A stretch of 64,000 nt of DNA. Origin: an uncultured Clostridia bacterium. Its GTDB lineage: Bacteria; Bacillota; Clostridia; Christensenellales; Borkfalkiaceae. The stretch spans positions 62,001 through 126,000 of the forward strand of contig CANREM010000001.1 in NCBI GenBank assembly GCA_947629675.1, read 5' to 3'. Both the position numbers and the translations under genes were made by a program. Position 1 is the first letter of the stretch, and every line of letters starts with the position of its first letter. This document shows positions 36,465-49,183 of the stretch, in pieces. Below the pieces are notes generated by a model that saw only the letters and a list, made by a program, of their open reading frames with translations, had not been told where the DNA came from and did not search any database.

Positions 36465-39400
36465 TTATGCTTCGGCTTTTACATAGACGTTTTCGCCAAT
36501 TCGAGCATCTTGGTTGTTGCAGATGATGAGACGACCGTCGGAAAGAACTGCGATATAGTAATCCACGCTGCCGCCCGTCAAATATACACAGTAATAATCC
36601 GTGATGAGATCTGCACCTTCGTCTTCATAGTTGCTCTTTGTTGCGTTAGTCAATGTAAACTCTTTCCCTTCGACTTTTTCGCCGTTGATGGTGCCCCAAA
36701 CATAGAGTTTCATTCCCTCTTTGTCGAGGACGACTTTTTCAATGGTGAAAGTGTTCCTGCCGAGCGTGTCAGAGTAATTCGCTTCCGTTTGCGCATTGTA
36801 GAGGTCGCCTGCGGGGAGGTTAGTATTGCCGCCTTCGCCTGTGCCGCTCGTGGAGAGGCGATAGAGGTTTGTACCGATCCGTGTGTGGCTTGCGTCGTAG
36901 ATGATGAGGCGTCCGTCGGAGAATATGGCAATGTTCCAGTCCGTAGATGAAAGGATATAGACATTGTAGTAATGGACAGGGACCGGTATTTCAGTGTCCT
37001 CATACATTGACGGATCGTCATCCTCTATATTATATTCCTGCCCCTCAACAGTAGCTCCCGCAACCGAACCCCAAACTAAAATCTTCGTTCCACTGTTATC
37101 GATTTCGATCTTGTCGATGGAATATTTTCTGCTATTAAGCCCAGTGGTGTTTTCCGCCTTCGTTTCTGCTACATAAACTGCATTTGTAGGCATGGGGTCA
37201 GTTGTCTTATCTTTGAGGGTGACGGTGATGGTGACGTTCTTTTCGGGCATGGTGAAGGAGTAGGAACCGTTGTCGTTCGCGATCTCGACTTCTGCCGAGG
37301 TCACGGCGTCGATCTCCTTCGCGTCGTCCTCGACGGTGAGGGTGAAGGTGACCTTCGTGCCCGAAGCATAGCCGTCCGCTGCAAGCCCTTCCGCCGTGAC
37401 GCCGTCGCCGCTGACGGTGACCGTGTACTTGGTAGGGGTAGGGGTGGGGGTGGAACCATCCGTGTATGTGTAAGTGAAGATCTTATTCGCAATGTCAACA
37501 ACAGTCACGGTGAAGAAGTATTTCGTGTTTACCACAAATTTCGAGAAAGTTATGACGTTGCCATCGAGTGTGCACATTACATAACCGCCGTATTCTGTCC
37601 ATGTCACAGGCTGACCATTCACGTTGTTGAGCGTTCCGTAGATCAGGACAAGCGAACCGGATTTATGCAATTCGAGCGTACTGCCATCCTCGCAGGTGAG
37701 ATCTCTTATATAGCCGCTTGCATCAAATTCAAGATCTTCGGAGAATTGGATCTGCACTTTTTCATAGGTGAACACGTTCCCGTGCGTCGGGAGATGGATG
37801 GTGAACTGATAGTGTTTGCCATCCGCATCCTCGTAGTCCTCGATGACCTTGGAATTGCTACCCCTCATTTTGAGCGTAGTTTGCTTGCCGTTGAAGGTGA
37901 CTGTGATGCTATGGTTGATAAAATCGCTACCGCTCCAAGTGTCGGGGCTGAGTTCCTTGGGATCGTCGATGACGAGGGTGTAAAGTCCGTCCTCGGAGGT
38001 ATAGGTCACGGAGCCGTCCGTGAGGCGGAAGTGATACTCGGTGCCATCGATCTCGACGGTGATGCAACCGTCCTCATAGGTGCCGGTGGCTGCAACATAG
38101 CCATTCTCGGCGACATCTTTGGAGTAGAAGGTGATGGTGGTCCCGTCGATCTTATAGAGCCAAATGTATGCGCCGTCCAGAATGACCGCCCTGCCTTCCA
38201 AAATGAGGCTGGAAGCACCGTCGAAATATTCGCCTGCTTCTTCGCCGGGGGCCATGATGAGGTAGGTTTTGTAAACGCCATTATCTTTATCCCAACATTG
38301 CTTTGCATACTCGATGCTCGGCACGATGATCCTGTATCCGATGCCTTGGTTGCCGGTGAAGGCACCCTGCCGTTCGCCCGACGCAATGGTGGGAGGGGTG
38401 CCGCCCGTGAGTTCGAGATAGAGCATGCCGTGGTCAACTTCGGTGGCGATCTCCGCAAAGGCAAGGGCCTCGATGCTCTCAATATGCTCGCCGACGGTGA
38501 TATGCTTGATGCCCGTGCAACCCGAGAACGCGCTTTCCCCGATCGTCACGATGGCGGGAAGCTCGATCTTGCCGTCCACGCCCGTGAGCGCGGTGCAGCC
38601 CGCAAATGCAGCCTCGCCGATGGTGGTGACATTGGTGAAGGTGACATTTTCAAGCGCGGTGCAGTTTTCGAACGCGCCCGCACCGATGGTGGTCACTTTT
38701 CCAAGGTCGATGGCGGTGAGCCAGGTATTGCCCATGAACACATTCGCACCGATCGCCGTAATTTGAATATCCGCTCCGCCGTATTCTGTCTGACCCTTAT
38801 CGATGACAAGTTCGGTGGAAGTGCTTTCGTTCGGGCGGTTGTATGCGATGAGCACGCCGTTTTCGTCCACTTCGAATTCGGGACGCTTGTTGACCTCTTC
38901 CGAACCCTTGATGGTGTAGAGGGTCGCACTGCGCCCTGCCGCCGTCCATGCCTCCGACCATGCGGTGCGGAACGCTTCGACGTTTGCTTCGGGCACGACG
39001 ATGACGAAGCCGCCCGCGGGCCAACGGAAGGGATCATTCGCCGCCGCCCAGTCGATTTCGATGGCATCGGGGTCTGTCCCGAGGAAGGTCACGCGCGTGA
39101 GCGTATTACTATTTTGGAAAGCTTTCGCGCCGATCTTGGTGACGCTTGCGGGGATGACTACGGAGATGAGGTCCATACCGGAGAATACTTCGTCCGCGAT
39201 CTCGGTCACGCCGTCGGGAATGGTGATGATCTTGGAGTCGCCCGTGTATTCGATGAGAACGCCGCCGGCGATCACGAAGTCGCCCTCGTTCACGCTCACT
39301 GCGAACGTCTTCGTTGTGAGATCGACGACGAAGTCCAAGGTGGTCTCCACGCCCGTATCGCCATAGACGTGAAGCGTGCAAATGGTGCCTTCTTCGTTGA

Positions 39401-41174
39401 AGACTGTCATGCCTTCGAACTCTTCGCCTGTCGAGGAGGTATACTTAGCTCCGCCGTAGCCGTCAAGCTCAAGTGTGCCCGTCCCGTTCTTCTCGTTGAG
39501 GACACCGGAACGCGCTTCGTTGAAGAGGAGATATATGTAGACATCCTCCTCTTCCGTATCGCCCTCGATATAACCCAGAGTGAAGCGGAAGCCCTCTTCA
39601 TAAAGGGAGGATTCGAATACATACTCCCCTGATTGAACATTGCCATTCAAGGCGTGGTATTCGCCCATATCAACAAGTCCCTCTTGTTGCGTGTCTTCAT
39701 CGTAGTCGAAGACATACGCCGTGCCATAGCCGTCCAAGAAGAGATAGGGATAATCGTAGAGGTATCCGTCTTCATAGAGGTCGAAGAGGCCATCCATGTA
39801 GTCATACTTGTAGAAGACGCCCTTGACTTTTTCGTCATCGACGCCTTCGATCTTGGTCTCTTCCAAAATGAAGAAGAAGTCGTTATCGCCGGCGGTGGAT
39901 TCTCCCGTTGCGGGATCGATGAAAGCAAAGTAGTATTCATCGTAATCCGGATCGTATTCGTAGTAGCCGTATTCGCTCTTAACTTGTTCGCCGACCCCGG
40001 TGGCATAGATCGCTTTGCCGTAGCCGTCGAGGTAGAGGATATTTGCTTCTACATAACCGGTAAGGTGATTATAGTAGTAATAGTAGCCTTCCTCGGTGCC
40101 GCGGAGAACATAGCCATCCTCCGTGATGAGGCCGACCACATTGCCACCCTCGGCTTCTTCATAATAGAAGGTGAAGCCCGTGAGCGCGCCCGTCTCCTGA
40201 TCGAAGTCCGCAAAGCCCATCTTTGCGATCTTGCCGTCCTCGTCTACACGGATGGCGGAGCCTTGACCCAAAACGCTCGTCCCGACATAGATGATCTCTT
40301 CGGATGCGCCCGTGGCATCTTCGTAGCCCTTCAGCCAGCAAGCATAGAGGGTGATACTGCCCGTGGGGGTGTAATTTTGACCGACGCGAAGGTCGCCCTG
40401 TGTGAGGTCCGCCTTGCCGGTAGGAGAAGTCGCCCAGCCGACGCACAGCCAGCCATCGGCAGTGTAGGCGGCGGGATCGGGAATGGTGACGGTGCCGTCC
40501 GTTTCCGCCGTGAGCGCGTTTACCGTACCCTTGACAGTCGCGCCCTCGGGAGCGTTCGCATCAAAGGTGACCGTGTAGCTCTCGGGCGTGACGGTTTTAT
40601 TCTTTAAGGTGACGGTCACGGTGACCGCCTTTGCGGGCATGGTAAAGCCGTATGCGCCATTGCCCTTGTCTTGGATCGTGACATCGGCAGAGGTGACGCT
40701 GTCGATTTCCTTCGTATCGTCGGTCACGGTGACGGTGAAAGTGACCTGCGCGCCCTCCGCATAGCCGTCGGCTTCGAGGCCGCTCACGGTGTAACCCTCG
40801 CCCGAAGCTACGGTGACGAGATACTTTACGGGAGTGGGCGGGGTGACTTCCTTCGCCTTGAGGGTGACATTGACGGTGACCGCCTTTGCGGGCATGGTAA
40901 AGCCGTATGTACCTTCGCCCTTGTCCTCGACGTTAACGTCGGCGGAAGCGACGCTCTCGATCTCCTTCGTATCGTCGGTCACGGTGACGGTGAAAGTGAC
41001 CTGCGCGCCCTCCGCATAGCCGTCGGCTTCGAGGCCGCTCACGGTGTAGCCCTCACCGCTTTCCGCCGTCACGCTGTACTTCTTCGGCTTGCTCTCTCCG
41101 CAAGCACCGAGAAGCGCGAGGATGGCAACGAAAAGACAGGTGGCCAAAGCAATGATCCATGATTTCCTCTTCAT
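36465..41174 (-). CDS. Giant LRR lipoprotein with repeated Ig-like/bacterial-repeat domains
   Basis: 1569 aa from the ATG at 41174 (AAGGAG 6 nt upstream; an ATG 5 codons earlier overlaps that site). Lipobox LGAC (Cys25). Residues about 30-195 hold two 85-residue repeats of the KYSVTAESGEGYTVSGLEAD...FTMPAKAVTVTVTL type, nearly identical at DNA level (255-bp period, about 40600-41090); a third diverged copy lies near residue 1250. An InlB-like YTVTFDANAPEGA...YACW unit follows. Then a YxYxxDGYG-rich beta region, LRR_5 repeats (about 675-930) and C-terminal paired beta domains (NTFTIEKVVLDKEG / KYSIDKIEIDNSG). Predicted surface adhesin or carbohydrate-binding protein. Confidence 0.8.
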   Translation of the reverse strand: MKRKSWIIALATCLFVAILALLGACGESKPKKYSVTAESGEGYTVSGLEADGYAEGAQVTFTVTVTDDTKEIESVASADVNVEDKGEGTYGFTMPAKAVTVNVTLKAKEVTPPTPVKYLVTVASGEGYTVSGLEADGYAEGAQVTFTVTVTDDTKEIDSVTSADVTIQDKGNGAYGFTMPAKAVTVTVTLKNKTVTPESYTVTFDANAPEGATVKGTVNALTAETDGTVTIPDPAAYTADGWLCVGWATSPTGKADLTQGDLRVGQNYTPTGSITLYACWLKGYEDATGASEEIIYVGTSVLGQGSAIRVDEDGKIAKMGFADFDQETGALTGFTFYYEEAEGGNVVGLITEDGYVLRGTEEGYYYYYNHLTGYVEANILYLDGYGKAIYATGVGEQVKSEYGYYEYDPDYDEYYFAFIDPATGESTAGDNDFFFILEETKIEGVDDEKVKGVFYKYDYMDGLFDLYEDGYLYDYPYLFLDGYGTAYVFDYDEDTQQEGLVDMGEYHALNGNVQSGEYVFESSLYEEGFRFTLGYIEGDTEEEDVYIYLLFNEARSGVLNEKNGTGTLELDGYGGAKYTSSTGEEFEGMTVFNEEGTICTLHVYGDTGVETTLDFVVDLTTKTFAVSVNEGDFVIAGGVLIEYTGDSKIITIPDGVTEIADEVFSGMDLISVVIPASVTKIGAKAFQNSNTLTRVTFLGTDPDAIEIDWAAANDPFRWPAGGFVIVVPEANVEAFRTAWSEAWTAAGRSATLYTIKGSEEVNKRPEFEVDENGVLIAYNRPNESTSTELVIDKGQTEYGGADIQITAIGANVFMGNTWLTAIDLGKVTTIGAGAFENCTALENVTFTNVTTIGEAAFAGCTALTGVDGKIELPAIVTIGESAFSGCTGIKHITVGEHIESIEALAFAEIATEVDHGMLYLELTGGTPPTIASGERQGAFTGNQGIGYRIIVPSIEYAKQCWDKDNGVYKTYLIMAPGEEAGEYFDGASSLILEGRAVILDGAYIWLYKIDGTTITFYSKDVAENGYVAATGTYEDGCITVEIDGTEYHFRLTDGSVTYTSEDGLYTLVIDDPKELSPDTWSGSDFINHSITVTFNGKQTTLKMRGSNSKVIEDYEDADGKHYQFTIHLPTHGNVFTYEKVQIQFSEDLEFDASGYIRDLTCEDGSTLELHKSGSLVLIYGTLNNVNGQPVTWTEYGGYVMCTLDGNVITFSKFVVNTKYFFTVTVVDIANKIFTYTYTDGSTPTPTPTKYTVTVSGDGVTAEGLAADGYASGTKVTFTLTVEDDAKEIDAVTSAEVEIANDNGSYSFTMPEKNVTITVTLKDKTTDPMPTNAVYVAETKAENTTGLNSRKYSIDKIEIDNSGTKILVWGSVAGATVEGQEYNIEDDDPSMYEDTEIPVPVHYYNVYILSSTDWNIAIFSDGRLIIYDASHTRIGTNLYRLSTSGTGEGGNTNLPAGDLYNAQTEANYSDTLGRNTFTIEKVVLDKEGMKLYVWGTINGEKVEGKEFTLTNATKSNYEDEGADLITDYYCVYLTGGSVDYYIAVLSDGRLIICNNQDARIGENVYVKAEA

Positions 41175-41408
41175 TTTTTCTCCTTGCATATATTTATTTT
41201 CACATCTGAAATATTCATAAAAAATTACAAATATTAAAGAATATTTTATATGAAAATTTTCCCTTTGTCAAGGAAATTGAAAGCACAATAAAGTGAAATT
41301 TTGACATAATGAAAAATTTTTTCAAATTATTTCCTGAAAAGATAGTTATTTTTGTGAAAAGGAGCGGGCGGCGGCAACAAAAATGAAAAATTGTAAGAAA
41401 AAATTTTT
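41175..41408. other. AT-rich spacer upstream of the giant lipoprotein gene
   Basis: Unlike other gaps it contains no A-, B- or C-type repeat. It is over 75 % A+T from 41205 to 41350, with TTTCCTTGACAAAG near 41277 on the minus strand as a candidate -35 (TTGACA) but no clean -10 at 17 nt. It probably holds the promoter of the 1569-aa lipoprotein gene and an UP-like element. Confidence 0.4.
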
Positions 41409-43507: not shown

Positions 43508-44018
43508 AAAAAAGTACCCCTTAGATAGTTGATTTTAGCGGGGGCAACAAAACCCCGCATAGTCCATTATACAACAAAATCGGTAAAAATCAAGAGATAA
43601 CCGAAAAATAGTTGCACTTTTTGTGTGAGACTTTCAAAATTTCTTCTTTAGAAAAATGGAAGGAGAATCGCGACATCCTACTCCGCGCGAATGGGTGTAC
43701 CGCGTCATTCCGAGGGCGTAGCCCGAGAGAATCCCCCGATACGAAGTCCGTTGCCCCTCCGTGGGAGGGGCGTCTCGCGTCATCCTGAGCCAAAACTGCA
43801 ATTACGCAGTCCTCGCGAGAAATTCTCCGAAGGATCCACTCATACGAGGTCCAATGGGTGAACCGCGTCATGCTGAGCCGAAACAGTGCAATGAAAACCG
43901 CAAACCAATCCTCGAAGCATCCCGAGAATGAAAACAGTGACATTGATATCCCCCGATACACAATTTCCCCGAGGCGAGGGAATGACGATGACATTCAAAA
44001 ATACATTTCCCGAAATCC
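43508..44018. repeat. Intergenic repeat mosaic upstream of the structured RNA
   Basis: A-type units ending TACGAAGTCC (43740-43749) and TACGAGGTCC (43843-43852), the latter with the inner ACGCAGTCC-TCGCGAGA module at about 43803-43822; a GTCATGCTGAGCCG...CTCGAAGCATCCCG unit 43867-43925; and one more partial arm to 43990. No gene. Confidence 0.6.
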
Positions 44019-44047
44019 TTGTAAAAATTTTTCCGTTGTGTTATACT
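44019..44047 (+). promoter_or_regulatory. Promoter of the structured RNA
   Basis: TTGTAA (44019-44024), 17-nt spacer, TATACT (44042-44047). The predicted start, about 44054, is the first base of the long hairpin. Confidence 0.7.
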
Positions 44048-44053
44048 GAATTC

Positions 44054-44190
44054 GCTACACAAATGAATATTTTTGCAATACGGTTACAACCTGGTAGGGG
44101 TGTATCCTATTCTGCCGTATTGCAGATTCATTTGTGTAGCAACAATATGGGATACTCTCTTCGGCGTCCCATATTGGGGCGTCTTTTTCT
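44054..44190 (+). ncRNA. Structured RNA of unknown family: long hairpin followed by terminator-like hairpin
   Basis: Outer stem of 15 perfect pairs (44054-44068 with 44126-44140), a 5/1-nt internal loop, inner stem TGCAATACGG (44074-44083) / CCGTATTGCA (44115-44124), and a 31-nt apical region with a small TAGG/CCTA stem. It is followed at once by AATATGGGA (44144-44152) / TCCCATATT (44167-44175) and GGGGCGTCTTTTT. The apical GTATCC (about 44102) can instead pair with GGATAC (about 44150) in the second hairpin, as in attenuators. It lies 80 nt before the 1441-aa lipoprotein gene, so it may be a leader switch or a free small RNA. I recognise no known family. Confidence 0.65.
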
Positions 44191-44268
44191 TTTATTCGCC
44201 CTCATCCCGAGGCCACGCAGGGGCCGAGCGGATCTTCTCTCGGAAAAATTTTTTTTGGAGGTACTCCC

Positions 44269-47200
44269 ATGAAGAAACACTATTGGCTCATTTTGCTTGC
44301 CCTTGCAAGCGCGCTTTGCTTTGCGCTCGGTCTTGGAGCTTGCGCAAAGGCAAAAGATCCTGTCGCACACAACCACACCTACGACGCGTGGGACTACGAC
44401 GAGACGCAACACTGGAAGTATTGCGATGAACACGGCACAGACAAGTCCAACATCGACGAGACGACCCGCGCGCCCCACGACTTCACGCAGGGCGACTGCA
44501 TCTGCGGTGCAAAAAAGCCTGTCACGCCCGGCGGCGGACAAGGAGGGGAAGAGCCTGGAGAACCCTGCGCCGTGCAATTTGATGTCAACGGCGGCTATCC
44601 GATCGTTGCTTTTACGACATGCGAGGCCGAAAAGACGATCTCTGCGCCACAGGAACCGAAAAAGAACGGATATCGTTTCGGCGGCTGGTTTACCGATGTA
44701 GCATGTTCGCATGAGGCGAGCTTTCCATATACCGTCACGAAAGACGTTACCTTTTACGCAAAATGGACTTCCGTAAACAAGACAGAGGTAAAATTTCGGA
44801 TCGTACCCGAAGCGGGTTCTTTCACGACAAACGGAGACATGATCGTCGATGGGAAGGTCGTTGGAGCAAGCGGCGATAAACTCATTGATTATTCGCAGGA
44901 TATCCTTCCGCCTATGGAAATAGAACGTGGCTCTAAATTTGAACAACCGGAAAATCCCAAGGATATCACGTATCAAGATGAGGATGGAAACGCGCATACA
45001 TTGCGATTTTCCTATTGGACGTTTTCCTCCGTATATGAGTACAACATATCGACGGCGGTGTTGTTCCCGCTCTATGATACCGATTACGATGAGATCACCC
45101 TCAACGCTGTATATATAGAAGTCCGAAGCAATCAAACTTATGCACAGCTCATGGTGCATCCCGAAAATGGGGAAAAGGATACCGTAATGTATGGGCTTCT
45201 TCATCAAGAATTACCCATCGCGACTCTTAACGCCAATACGCCGTATCCTTTCCAAACAGACGGATATGCCCCCCGTAAAGCGGGTTATGAAGCGACGGGA
45301 TATTATAAGACGCGGGAGTTTACCGCCGAAAACATCTACCCCGTCCCTTTCCGTTTTGAAAAAGAGCAAAATGATGTCTATATCCGCTGGGCAAAAAAAG
45401 ATGATGTGCAAATAACGTTTGATTTCGGATATGACAATAAAAAGGAAGTATCCACGACGCAATACAGGGGATATGTTTCAAGAATCGATGACCCGATCCG
45501 CGTGGGTTATACCTTCGACGGATGGTATGCCCCCTATACGCCGGCCAACGAAGACAATGCGTGGGATTTCTCTCACGATACGGTGTGGTCATCTTTCACC
45601 CTCAAAGCGAAATGGATCAAGACAGCCGCTGTTGTGACCTTCGATTCTCTTGGCGGGGAGGCCAGAAACCCCATCGCCGTACAAAAGGGCACTGTTATAA
45701 ATTCTCTTCCCCTTGTCGAACGGGAAGAGGATGGCGGCAACACCATTTACAATTTTCTTGGATGGTATCTCGATGAAGTAGGCTCTCGTCCAGCCTTATC
45801 GGGAACAGGGTTGACTGTGAATGACGACATAACGCTGTATGCAAAATGGAGCGATAAGATCGACATTTCAAAACTCGAATTGCGCATGATAAGCTCCGGC
45901 TATACCGTTTCCGTAAAGAAGGGGGCCGAAAAGGAATTACAAGGCGTTATTCTCCTGCCAACGCGCTATAAAGGAAAAGAGGTCATGAGAGTGGATAATA
46001 GCGGATTTGCAGGATGCATCAATCTCACAGAAATCGTTTTACCGGAAACGATCTATGCAATTTTCTCAGAAGCATTCAAGGATTGTACTTCCTTGACACG
46101 GATCGTCCTGCCGAACGGGCTCGAACAGATCGCGGCCGGAGCCTTTGAGAATTGTACTGAACTTGAGAATGTAAATTTTCCCACGGGAGATGGATTCGCG
46201 TATATTCAGGCAGATATTTTTGCGACATGTCCGAAGATGCTTGCGAAATTGACGAAAGACATATGGAATGGCGTTTCCGTTTTCTATTGGGAAAAGGCCT
46301 GCCTCGGCGTTGGGTACGGTACGGAGGATAAGAACGGTGATGGAAAGGCGGGCGTTTGGGACGTGACCGATTTGACGGATTATACAGTAAAAGAAGGAAC
46401 GACGGTCGTCGCATCGGGTGCTTTCTATTACTGCTCAAAATTGACAAGCTTGACGTTTTCCGATTCCGTCATGTGGGCTTCGGAGAGTGTCTTTCCGACA
46501 GACTTCATATACAATGGGCGAGGTGGCTGTGTGCTTACCGAATTGCACCTTTCGGCATCTTATAGATACAGTCAGTTAGCCCCCAATTATCCTGCCGATT
46601 TAGAGACACTTACGATTCCTGCAAGCAATCCCTATTTTGAGGTTGTGGACGGGTGTCTCGTCTATAAGCCGGAAAAAATTCTTGTTGCCTCTGTTGTCTC
46701 CGCCTCGAAAATACCGGACGGGATCGTCATTATCGGTGAAGAATCATTTCGCAATAAACAGCTTGATACGGTGGAGATCCCCGAGACGGTAACAACGATC
46801 CGCACGCACGCCTTTGACGAAGGTGCTTATACTTCGATCATTATTCCCGATAATGTCGGCATACTCGACGCATATGCGTTTACAAAATGTAGTAATCTTC
46901 AATCACTTACGCTCGGTGCCAAGGCACCCCTCATGGAGACGGCGTTCTTCACCAATATACATTCCTATGACCTTGCAAACATAGAAATCTCTGCCGTCAA
47001 TGAAAACATGATCTGTATAAGCAGCATCGTATATAATCGAAGGGACGGCGACATGATCTATGGCGCACCCGCTTATGTGGGCCCTTTTACGCCTTGGGAA
47101 AAGGCCACACGGATCAAGAGCAGCGTTCTCGGCGGACATTATACGGAGTTTTGGCTCCCGGACAACATTGAAGAAGTTGAGGACTCGTTGATCGCGGCGC

Positions 47201-48594
47201 TTGAAGTAGACAAACTCATCCTCGGAAAGCGTTGGGGCAGTAGCGACGATACCTTTGAGAAACTCTTCGGAAACAATCGCGGAGGACGGATAAGCATGAA
47301 TTTATGTAAAGAAATTCAGATTTACGATGACGGAGACATGGTTGTAAAAGACGGTGCAGTTTACAATAAGGACGTTTCGCGCCTCCTGTTTGTCGAAAGC
47401 GATACGGAAAAACTTGTCATTCCCGATACAGTAACTTCGGTAGCGGGTAGCGTGGAAGCATATAACGTAAGAGAGCTTACAGTAGGAGCGGGGATCTCCT
47501 TTGATGAGTTCATCAAATTTATTTATGGATATGAAAGGTCGAGCACGACGTCCTCCGGCTGCGGTGCGGCGTTTTATCCCGAAAAAATTACGGTCAGTGA
47601 GCAAAACGCCGAACTGTCCTCTTTCGGCAATGTTGTTTATTCAAAAGATCGGACAAGCCTTGTTTACATACCTGCCAAGTTTGACGGAGACCTTGTTCTC
47701 CCGAAAGAAATGACTTCCATACATAATCTGTTCAGCCTCATGACTTCTTCGTATGGGAACGGGATCATTTATGATGAGGATTGGGTCGAATATTATCTTG
47801 ATCCAAGCTTCGTTCATATCCACACGCTTTCCGTCGAGAAAGATTCGCAACTTGAAACGATCGGTGCTTTTACTTTTGCGCCTGTCTCGGTTTACTATCC
47901 TACGTCATGGTTCGGAGAGCTTGATTGGAGCGATGGGCTTGATCTAAGGGACGGAAAAGACGGTGATGAAGCTGTAAAATTTGTCCCCGATTGGACTGTT
48001 GACGCACAGCTTGCCGGCATTACATTCACAATCGACAAGATCGATCTCTCAAATGCAACGAATTTGAAAGAGATCCATGGTAAAGCTTTCTTTGGTTTGG
48101 AGACCCTGCGTGAGGTTATTCTGCCTGATTCAATAACCAGTTACGGTTGGCTGGTGTTTGGCGTAGACGAGTGGAGAGGAGGAGGAAGTGCCCTTGAAAG
48201 CATTACGGGCGGCAATTTTGCAAATGCAGAATTTTGGTATGATTTCATCAACGATTATACCAAATTGTGTGATGAAAACGGCTTCTTCATCGTCGACGGC
48301 GTACTGCTGGGCTATCGCCCCAAGGGGGCCCCGACCGAAATAGTGCTTCCCGAGGGCGTAACATCGATCAGAGAGGGAGTATTTAAGAGTTGTAGTTCAC
48401 TTGAAAAGATTTATTATAGCGGGACGCAAGAGGACTGGGAAAAGATGCAAATAGGCACCGATAATTCCTACCTTGCTTCTGCGATCCGATACTACTTCTC
48501 TTTAACAAAGCCGAGCGAGGAGCAATGGACGGAATGGGATCATTGGTGGCACTTCGATGAGACGGGAAAGGCCGTCGAATGGGTAAAGCAATAG
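44269..48594 (+). CDS. Giant lipoprotein: Cys/His module, three InlB/Flg_new repeats, long LRR_5 array
   Basis: 1441 aa; TTGGAGG lies before the ATG. Lipobox LGAC (Cys25). About 33-83: a Cys/His module (HNHTYDAWDYDETQHWKYC...GDCICG) like that of the lipoproteins at 24-26 kb. Three Flg_new/InlB repeats, each ending YAKW or LKAKW, within about 100-530. From about 545 to 1400, LRR_5 units (GFAGCINLTEIVLPETIYAI, AFKDCTSLTRIVLPNGLEQI and many more). The end, QWTEWDHWWHFDETGKAVEWVKQ, matches the HWWHF cap of the collagen-like lipoprotein. Preceded by the structured RNA. Predicted surface protein, ligand unknown. GC is somewhat below the housekeeping genes. Confidence 0.82.
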   Translation: MKKHYWLILLALASALCFALGLGACAKAKDPVAHNHTYDAWDYDETQHWKYCDEHGTDKSNIDETTRAPHDFTQGDCICGAKKPVTPGGGQGGEEPGEPCAVQFDVNGGYPIVAFTTCEAEKTISAPQEPKKNGYRFGGWFTDVACSHEASFPYTVTKDVTFYAKWTSVNKTEVKFRIVPEAGSFTTNGDMIVDGKVVGASGDKLIDYSQDILPPMEIERGSKFEQPENPKDITYQDEDGNAHTLRFSYWTFSSVYEYNISTAVLFPLYDTDYDEITLNAVYIEVRSNQTYAQLMVHPENGEKDTVMYGLLHQELPIATLNANTPYPFQTDGYAPRKAGYEATGYYKTREFTAENIYPVPFRFEKEQNDVYIRWAKKDDVQITFDFGYDNKKEVSTTQYRGYVSRIDDPIRVGYTFDGWYAPYTPANEDNAWDFSHDTVWSSFTLKAKWIKTAAVVTFDSLGGEARNPIAVQKGTVINSLPLVEREEDGGNTIYNFLGWYLDEVGSRPALSGTGLTVNDDITLYAKWSDKIDISKLELRMISSGYTVSVKKGAEKELQGVILLPTRYKGKEVMRVDNSGFAGCINLTEIVLPETIYAIFSEAFKDCTSLTRIVLPNGLEQIAAGAFENCTELENVNFPTGDGFAYIQADIFATCPKMLAKLTKDIWNGVSVFYWEKACLGVGYGTEDKNGDGKAGVWDVTDLTDYTVKEGTTVVASGAFYYCSKLTSLTFSDSVMWASESVFPTDFIYNGRGGCVLTELHLSASYRYSQLAPNYPADLETLTIPASNPYFEVVDGCLVYKPEKILVASVVSASKIPDGIVIIGEESFRNKQLDTVEIPETVTTIRTHAFDEGAYTSIIIPDNVGILDAYAFTKCSNLQSLTLGAKAPLMETAFFTNIHSYDLANIEISAVNENMICISSIVYNRRDGDMIYGAPAYVGPFTPWEKATRIKSSVLGGHYTEFWLPDNIEEVEDSLIAALEVDKLILGKRWGSSDDTFEKLFGNNRGGRISMNLCKEIQIYDDGDMVVKDGAVYNKDVSRLLFVESDTEKLVIPDTVTSVAGSVEAYNVRELTVGAGISFDEFIKFIYGYERSSTTSSGCGAAFYPEKITVSEQNAELSSFGNVVYSKDRTSLVYIPAKFDGDLVLPKEMTSIHNLFSLMTSSYGNGIIYDEDWVEYYLDPSFVHIHTLSVEKDSQLETIGAFTFAPVSVYYPTSWFGELDWSDGLDLRDGKDGDEAVKFVPDWTVDAQLAGITFTIDKIDLSNATNLKEIHGKAFFGLETLREVILPDSITSYGWLVFGVDEWRGGGSALESITGGNFANAEFWYDFINDYTKLCDENGFFIVDGVLLGYRPKGAPTEIVLPEGVTSIREGVFKSCSSLEKIYYSGTQEDWEKMQIGTDNSYLASAIRYYFSLTKPSEEQWTEWDHWWHFDETGKAVEWVKQ

Positions 48595-49106: not shown

Positions 49107-49183
49107 TGGTGTACCCGCCGGGGCTCGAACCCGGAGTCGATGGCGTCGGAGGCCATAATGTTATCCAATTACACTACGAGTAC
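49107..49183 (-). tRNA. tRNA-Arg (CCG)
   Basis: Reads 5' to 3' on the minus strand from 49183. Acceptor GTACTCG pairs with CGGGTAC; anticodon stem ATGGC/GCCAT with loop CTCCGAC gives anticodon CCG (decodes CGG); T arm CCGGG-TTCGAGC-CCCGG. CCA is encoded (49109-49107). A TATAAT at about 49210-49205 fits its promoter. The terminator hairpin CCCCGAACAG/CTGTTCGGGG follows directly. Confidence 0.93.

Follow-up and report, generated by a model that had tools for sequence, protein, structure and literature searches.

The 137-base element in front of the 1441-aa lipoprotein gene in the window (the whole stretch of DNA analysed, 64,000 nucleotides) is very probably a cis-acting transcription attenuator in the leader of that gene and one copy of a large RNA family. 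Members of this family are predicted, most likely, to be on/off switches, mainly of lipoprotein and surface genes. The computation supports the helices, their mutual exclusion, the co-evolution of strands in cis, the position of the promoter and the position of the gene behind the RNA. The RNA family, the true terminator, the chain of five strands described below and the copies in virus contigs all go beyond what had been noted on this DNA before. The parts of the element are collected in Table 1.

Table 1. Coordinates of the RNA element and of neighbouring features in the window.
Feature	Positions	Strand	Details
Whole RNA element	44054–44190	+	137 bases; full-length covariance-model match, 105.7 bits
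Promoter TTGTAA-17-TATACT	44019–44047	+	-35 box 44019–44024; -10 box 44042–44047
P1, 5' strand	44054–44068	+	partner 44126–44140; 15-bp perfect stem
P1, 3' strand	44126–44140	+	partner 44054–44068
P2, 5' strand	44074–44083	+	partner 44115–44124; 10-bp perfect stem
P2, 3' strand	44115–44124	+	partner 44074–44083
Strand A (GGTTACA)	44082–44088	+	5' side of apical P3; first two bases shared with P2
Strand B (TGTATCCT)	44101–44108	+	partner A in P3, or C
Strand C (GGGATAC)	44149–44155	+	partner B (pseudoknot) or, inside P4, partly D
P4, predicted antiterminator hairpin C:D	44143–44176	+	arms 44143–44152 and 44167–44176
Intrinsic terminator D:E and T-run	44163–44188	+	stem-loop 44163–44183; T-run 44184–44188
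Likely ribosome-binding site GGAGG of the lipoprotein gene	44257–44261	+	from the sequence
1441-aa lipoprotein gene behind the RNA	44269–48594	+	BspA-type LRR_5 and Listeria-Bacteroides repeats; lipobox by a crude rule

The promoter, the perfect P1 stem and the P2 stem with 31 nt between its arms are present as the original prediction had described them, as is the complementarity of the apical GTATCC (44102–44107) to GGATAC (44150–44155). The P3 pairing joins 44085–44088 to 44101–44104. The minimum free energy of the element was -59.5 compared with -29.7 ± 3.5 for 300 dinucleotide shuffles (z = -8.6), and the stability of the fold is thus beyond chance. One earlier assignment had to be corrected. 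A "terminator-like" hairpin had been placed at 44144–44175 directly before the T-run, but GGGCGTC (44177–44183) intervenes, and an independent terminator scan identified the true terminator at 44163–44183 as GGCGTCCCA-TAT-TGGGGCGTC followed by TTTTT. As the real terminator excludes the hairpin first proposed, the latter occupies the position of an antiterminator. The P4 and terminator hairpins share 44167–44176 and are mutually exclusive; both are conserved, which bears out the expectation of two exclusive folds as in attenuators. Short interspersed repeats are dense at 43680–43990 and 44190–44260, for example around gcgtcatcctgag and cctcatcccgagg, and 43700–44010 was matched at 65 places in the organism's own genome, the site in the window counted.

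A single copy of the RNA was found in the 64-kb window, where it scored 102.5 bits with covariance model R1 (as locus L001); the other match, at 27.5 bits, was a weak reverse-strand shadow of the same copy. A second giant LRR_5 protein gene (36465–41189, minus strand, 1574 aa) has no RNA copy in front of it. Homologues were sought by blastn with the element, which returned further copies in the own genome and copies in 14 of 61 genomes, own included, and by covariance search with two models. Model R1, which was based on 10 copies and had P1, P2 and P3 as its sole helices, detected the RNA in 84 of 101 genomes of a genus sample, with a maximum of 13 matches within one genome, and in 48 of 297 genomes (23 of 125 genera) of an order sample. 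Model R2, made from 73 copies and including the terminator, detected it in 86/396 genomes and 34/142 genera of the order and in 61/391 genomes and 38/222 genera of the class. In the phylum sample the single positive among 299 genomes was the own genome; this sample doubles as a specificity control to the extent that its other 298 genomes fall outside the class. Searches over more than 40 genomes used stricter filters, by which weak matches may be lost, and their E-values are rough.

The own genome holds 11 distinct copies by R2. In the eleventh (L297, 4001–4134, minus strand, contig C12) B and C differ from the GTATCC/GGGATAC form; no qualifying ORF lies behind it, and the opposite strand encodes what by eye looks like a helix-turn-helix-like protein. 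A pattern scan of genome contigs gave at least 118 stretches, many of them chance matches. Among 33 loci picked by title from the matches listed, 19 carry the RNA by R1, and all 19 carriers are metagenome-assembled entries named 'uncultured Clostridia bacterium' (isolates 'Lapin-...'). Closely spaced tandem copies were seen in genomes G030, G254, G051 and G733; loci with such copies are L012 (1521–1672 and 1787–1918), L080 (1501–1638 and 1724–1865), L312 and L311. Several copies begin or end no more than about 150 nt from the end of a contig (G333 C1, G019 C3, G117 C100, G125 C10 and G020 C25), as though the assembly broke at such loci.

Covariation was evaluated in alignment A6, which was built from matches at E ≤ 1e-10 and holds 73 aligned copies, 5 of 76 loci having been left out as same copies. 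Counts of changes come from related copies and hence are not independent events. P1, P2 and P3 covary strongly. Taken together, 95.9% of their cells were paired and two-sided changes occurred in 26 of 27 pairs (514 cells), counts that lean towards these three helices because A6 was fitted to them. None of 500 shuffles reached any of five measures, and sliding the partner strand reduced pairing to 25.6–53.9%. Two-sided changes were observed in 11 of 12 modelled pairs of P1 and in all 10 of P2. The pairings B:C, C:D and D:E lie outside R1. D:E was 98.8% paired with two-sided changes in 6 of 8 pairs. For B:C, 96.2% of cells were paired and 5 of 7 pairs showed two-sided changes, in only 10 cells; as shuffles were also 94.1% paired and a slide of -2 still gave 76.0%, the alignment columns alone are modest evidence for this helix. 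C:D was 80.2% paired with two-sided changes in 7 of 8 pairs (42 cells), compared with 49.6% pairing upon a slide of -1, which gave 40 two-sided cells, nearly as many as the true register. A covariance search for homologues had been suggested as a check on the original prediction, and it thus yielded many of them, with compensatory changes.

The strands A to E form a chain of mutually exclusive pairings, A:B, B:C, C:D and D:E, of which D:E is the terminator. B can pair with either A or C because in distant copies C repeats A, the 5' strand of the apical stem. In L080, for instance, A, B and C are all unlike the genus form and the pairings are kept. The matching of strands within copies was examined further by exchanging strands between copies. 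For 48 distant copies, in which B lacks GTATCC, the mean B:C energy was -13.9 kcal/mol with the own C and -8.7 kcal/mol with the C of others; the own strand beat the swap mean in 48/48, a result reached by 0 of 10,000 permutations, and it was the best or tied partner in only 9 of the 48. Over all 105 rows, which represent 104 copies since the window copy enters twice (L001 in A6 and A7), the values were -12.8 and -9.1, the own C being better in 101. The C:D test, whose set likewise counts the window copy twice, gave -15.3 for own and -9.5 for swapped strands, with 91 of 92 better and 0 of 10,000 permutations. When swaps were confined to single genomes (35 copies in 9 genomes, with two reverse-strand A9 matches and repeated L080 rows left out), B:C was better in 28/35 and C:D in 26/35, again with 0 of 10,000 permutations each. 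The weak genomes were G368 (5/8), G650 (2/4) and G051 (0/2) for B:C and G368 (5/8), G254 (0/2) and G051 (0/2) for C:D. Within a genome, the strands of each copy thus tend to co-evolve in cis, an argument against a network that acts mainly in trans.

A -10 box (at least 5 of 6 matches to TATAAT) was found 0–14 nt before P1 in 98 of 104 copies, with a gap of exactly 6 nt in 70, compared with 14 of 104 in a control placed 25 nt further up. From this position, the transcript probably begins at the opening base of P1 or one or two bases away from it. At the other end, 111 of 119 copies are followed on the same strand by a start codon with a ribosome site, 12–267 nt away (median 33), which is the 5' leader position of a cis-regulatory attenuator; of these 111 ORF starts, 10 were on later inspection considered doubtful or found to repeat the same gene. 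In the remaining 8 copies no qualifying ORF begins in the next 330 nt or so; one of them, L066, stops at the end of its contig. In the window, no plus-strand promoter was found between the terminator and the ATG of the lipoprotein gene.

Of the two roles first put forward for the element, leader of the lipoprotein gene and stand-alone RNA, the former is favoured by the gene-linked copies. In 78 of these 111 copies the start codon comes at most 37 nt after the end of the RNA, so that a second promoter would hardly fit between them. A small RNA of about 135 nt that stands alone between its own promoter and terminator, with the downstream gene incidental to it, is improbable. The bracketing by promoter and terminator and the own-genome copy without a qualifying downstream ORF agree with such an RNA, but not so the short gap to a ribosome site and start codon on the same strand, the co-evolution of B, C and D in cis within genomes or the conservation of the antiterminator. 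Attenuation by a leader peptide is barely credible. An ATG does occur at 44063, and a start codon led by a Shine-Dalgarno sequence lies inside the RNA in 19 of 131 copies; transcription from P1 nevertheless leaves no room for a ribosome site before the 44063 ATG, and such a start codon is absent from 112 of 131 copies, so that no conserved uORF was found.

Crude rules applied to the 111 downstream proteins predicted a signal peptide in 68 and a lipobox as well in 51. Pfam domains were assigned to 100 proteins, that is, after 10 doubtful or repeated ones were dropped by hand together with the long L104 protein. BspA-type LRR_5 was the most frequent (34), followed by the zinc-ribbon Zn_Ribbon_1 (12), DUF6273 (6) and the Listeria-Bacteroides repeat (6). 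The gene behind the window copy is itself of the BspA-type LRR_5 kind. The same RNA is found in front of other lipoprotein genes, an observation that the original prediction had named as support. Some copies at the class level precede small proteins (L254 1270–1470, L264 1280–1474 and L257 1242–1451, all on the minus strand, and L266 1676–1945 on the plus strand); those behind L254 and L257, the two of the four scanned separately, had no Pfam match.

Gene and promoter positions also bear on the reading of the element as a mobile or repeat element, such as a MITE-like inverted repeat, which is highly improbable. Up to 13 matches per genome, the inverted-repeat shape, the presence in virus contigs and a copy (L389) that adjoins an integrase-core (rve) transposase gene at 7–1050 on the minus strand all fit a mobile element. 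Against it, a same-strand gene lies behind 111 of 119 copies with a mostly constant orientation, the promoter box lies outside the repeat in 98 of 104, and copies differ by compensatory change instead of being identical. Ten upstream neighbours were scanned and consisted of nine ordinary cellular genes and the one transposase at L389. The mobile/repeat motif MRSC-65-2, as described in the covered part of PMC11109978, resembles the window RNA in its long covarying stem and many copies; the window RNA differs in its mostly constant gene orientation, its promoter, its terminator and its exclusive helices.

The preferred reading, attenuation in cis, can be laid out as a sequence of folding events. 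We infer the assignment of ON and OFF states, the direction of the response and a ligand or protein as the input. Transcription would begin at the start of P1, give or take a base or two, and P1-P2 would fold into a long hairpin with P3 (A:B) at its tip. Once strand C has emerged it would have two possible partners. In the ON state B would be kept by A, C would pair with D as the antiterminator P4 and polymerase would read into the gene. In the OFF state C would displace A and capture B in the B:C pseudoknot, leaving D free to form the D:E terminator, and transcription would stop after about 135 nt. Since C:D is transcribed before E is complete, the antiterminator would form first when A holds B. 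We propose that the balance is tipped by a signal that acts on P1-P2-P3. In minimum free energy folds of the growing window transcript, P4 is complete at 44176 and kept to 44190, the 3' arm of the terminator being finished only at 44183. By this nested-fold measure, which cannot show B:C pairing, read-through would be the default unless B:C forms.

Energies were calculated for 131 copies, two reverse-strand A9 matches having been dropped. The means were -8.0 for A:B, -13.3 for B:C, -15.7 for C:D and -16.0 for D:E. Compared with A, C was the more stable partner of B in 127 of 131 copies, in favour of the preferred reading. Against it, the OFF set lay below the ON set by a mean of 5.6 kcal/mol (sd 4.2); these energies are crude, and B:C, a pairing that requires the P1-P2 rod to bend, was treated as a simple duplex with no pseudoknot cost. 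Also on this side, at least 9 T in 14 nt were present at the 3' end of only 71 of the 131 copies.

Two kinds of input were weighed. The RNA may, we tentatively suggest, be an orphan riboswitch in which P1-P2-P3 and the internal loop bind a small molecule or ion and so shift A:B versus B:C. This would agree with the leader position, the overlap of terminator and antiterminator, the close tandem copies in the four genomes named above, and the diversity of the genes behind the RNA, as with riboswitches of global signals. It agrees less well with the unpaired positions, few of which are strongly conserved by eye despite the strong covariation, and no gene theme names a metabolite. It is also conceivable, if rather unlikely, that a trans-acting RNA-binding protein recognises P1 (GCnnCACAA/TTGTGnnGC) or the tip of P3 and sets the balance. 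P1 is kept in sequence besides pairing, with YAYAA at positions 5–9 in 105 of 131 copies and a GC start in 115 of 131, but there is no candidate protein.

Specific inputs were considered as well. Cyclic di-GMP is unlikely: no GGDEF match at E ≤ 1e-10 was found in the own genome, which is 91% complete and carries 11 copies of the RNA. At the same threshold a match was present in 20 of 101 genus genomes and absent from 65 of 84 RNA-bearing ones, a figure that takes both 101-genome samples as the same set and includes many incomplete genomes. LoaP is an antiterminator of Clostridia and bacilli, and LoaP-dependent antitermination leaders combine an RNA hairpin and a terminator before long genes. 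The window RNA is similar in having a hairpin and terminator before a long gene, but LoaP as input is unlikely, as 0 of 101 genus genomes gave a match over the cut-off and weaker matches are probably NusG.

Riboswitches and attenuators that terminate transcription, such as SAM-I and the T-box, are leaders in which an exclusive antiterminator and terminator share one strand. The window RNA is likewise a leader whose antiterminator and terminator are exclusive and share one strand. In contrast to that kind, it has no assigned ligand or Rfam family, its promoter is fixed at the base of P1, and its strand C mimics the 5' strand of the apical stem and can capture the partner of that strand as a pseudoknot. 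The comparison with Rfam 15 agrees with the earlier claim of a novel structured RNA: at gathering threshold, the window and 40 related loci contained no family other than tRNAs, and the only RNA gene reported in the window by Rfam and ARAGORN was a tRNA-Arg (CCG) at 49107–49183 on the minus strand. A permissive search of 43950–44270 by E-value returned only matches far short of their thresholds; the best, to a microRNA family and on the opposite strand, had E = 0.0018 and scored 24.2 bits where the threshold is 110.

No such motif was found in the covered main text of PMC11109978, PMC8040213, PMC2864571 and PMC8632094; a match in supplementary motif lists is possible, and PMC8040213 reports 3161 candidates. 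A parallel in the covered part of PMC11109978 is the fhsA motif, a weak riboswitch candidate whose terminator is proposed to be controlled by a pseudoknot that joins a hairpin to the terminator stem-loop. Control of a terminator by a pseudoknot is also what we propose for the window RNA; the fhsA motif, by its description there, is set apart by its occurrence in Leptotrichia and environmental DNA and by its association with another gene. We file the RNA as a new family of a kind already known, predicted to work like a riboswitch-type attenuator.

A scan of virus contigs with a 15-base P1/linker pattern gave at least 120 stretches. Of 80 loci taken from the matches listed, 18 carry the RNA by R2, several of them being near-identical. 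The form of the RNA seen in the genus was found in none of 18 pattern matches in viruses, a longer pattern gave 0 stretches, and blastn gave no match to it in collections of phages or plasmids. In L369 the RNA lies between a small phrog_34912 protein and genes for an endonuclease (phrog_93), an exonuclease (phrog_3953) and a phrog_4291 protein; phrog_4291 is annotated as RNA-dependent RNA polymerase and is present in L369 and L376. Contigs L330, L339 and L344 look alike by the N-termini of their encoded proteins, and the gene directly behind the RNA differs among them, that of L339 encoding a lipoprotein-like protein with DUF6591. In the contigs L330, L339, L369 and L344, whose neighbouring genes resemble each other, the RNA stands at one place, with different genes directly behind it, near an exonuclease and a phrog_4291 polymerase. 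This looks like, and is possibly, an exchangeable cargo slot behind a fixed switch. In phage contigs the same likely switch stands before genes that differ between relatives.

The RNA would add to the bacteria of this class a family with unusually strong structural support. It may represent a new riboswitch-like class of Clostridia and phages, a suggestion that we consider plausible but hold as a guess, in which a common intracellular signal would act through a five-strand relay on many surface lipoprotein genes and on exchangeable phage cargo genes. In the relay reading, a nascent strand would mimic and displace the 5' strand of the apical stem. BspA-type lipoproteins are frequent behind the RNA, and the covered part of the literature names no regulator of their genes. 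An RNA switch shared by some ten genes of one genome would define a likely regulon from sequence alone, and would make its signal searchable.
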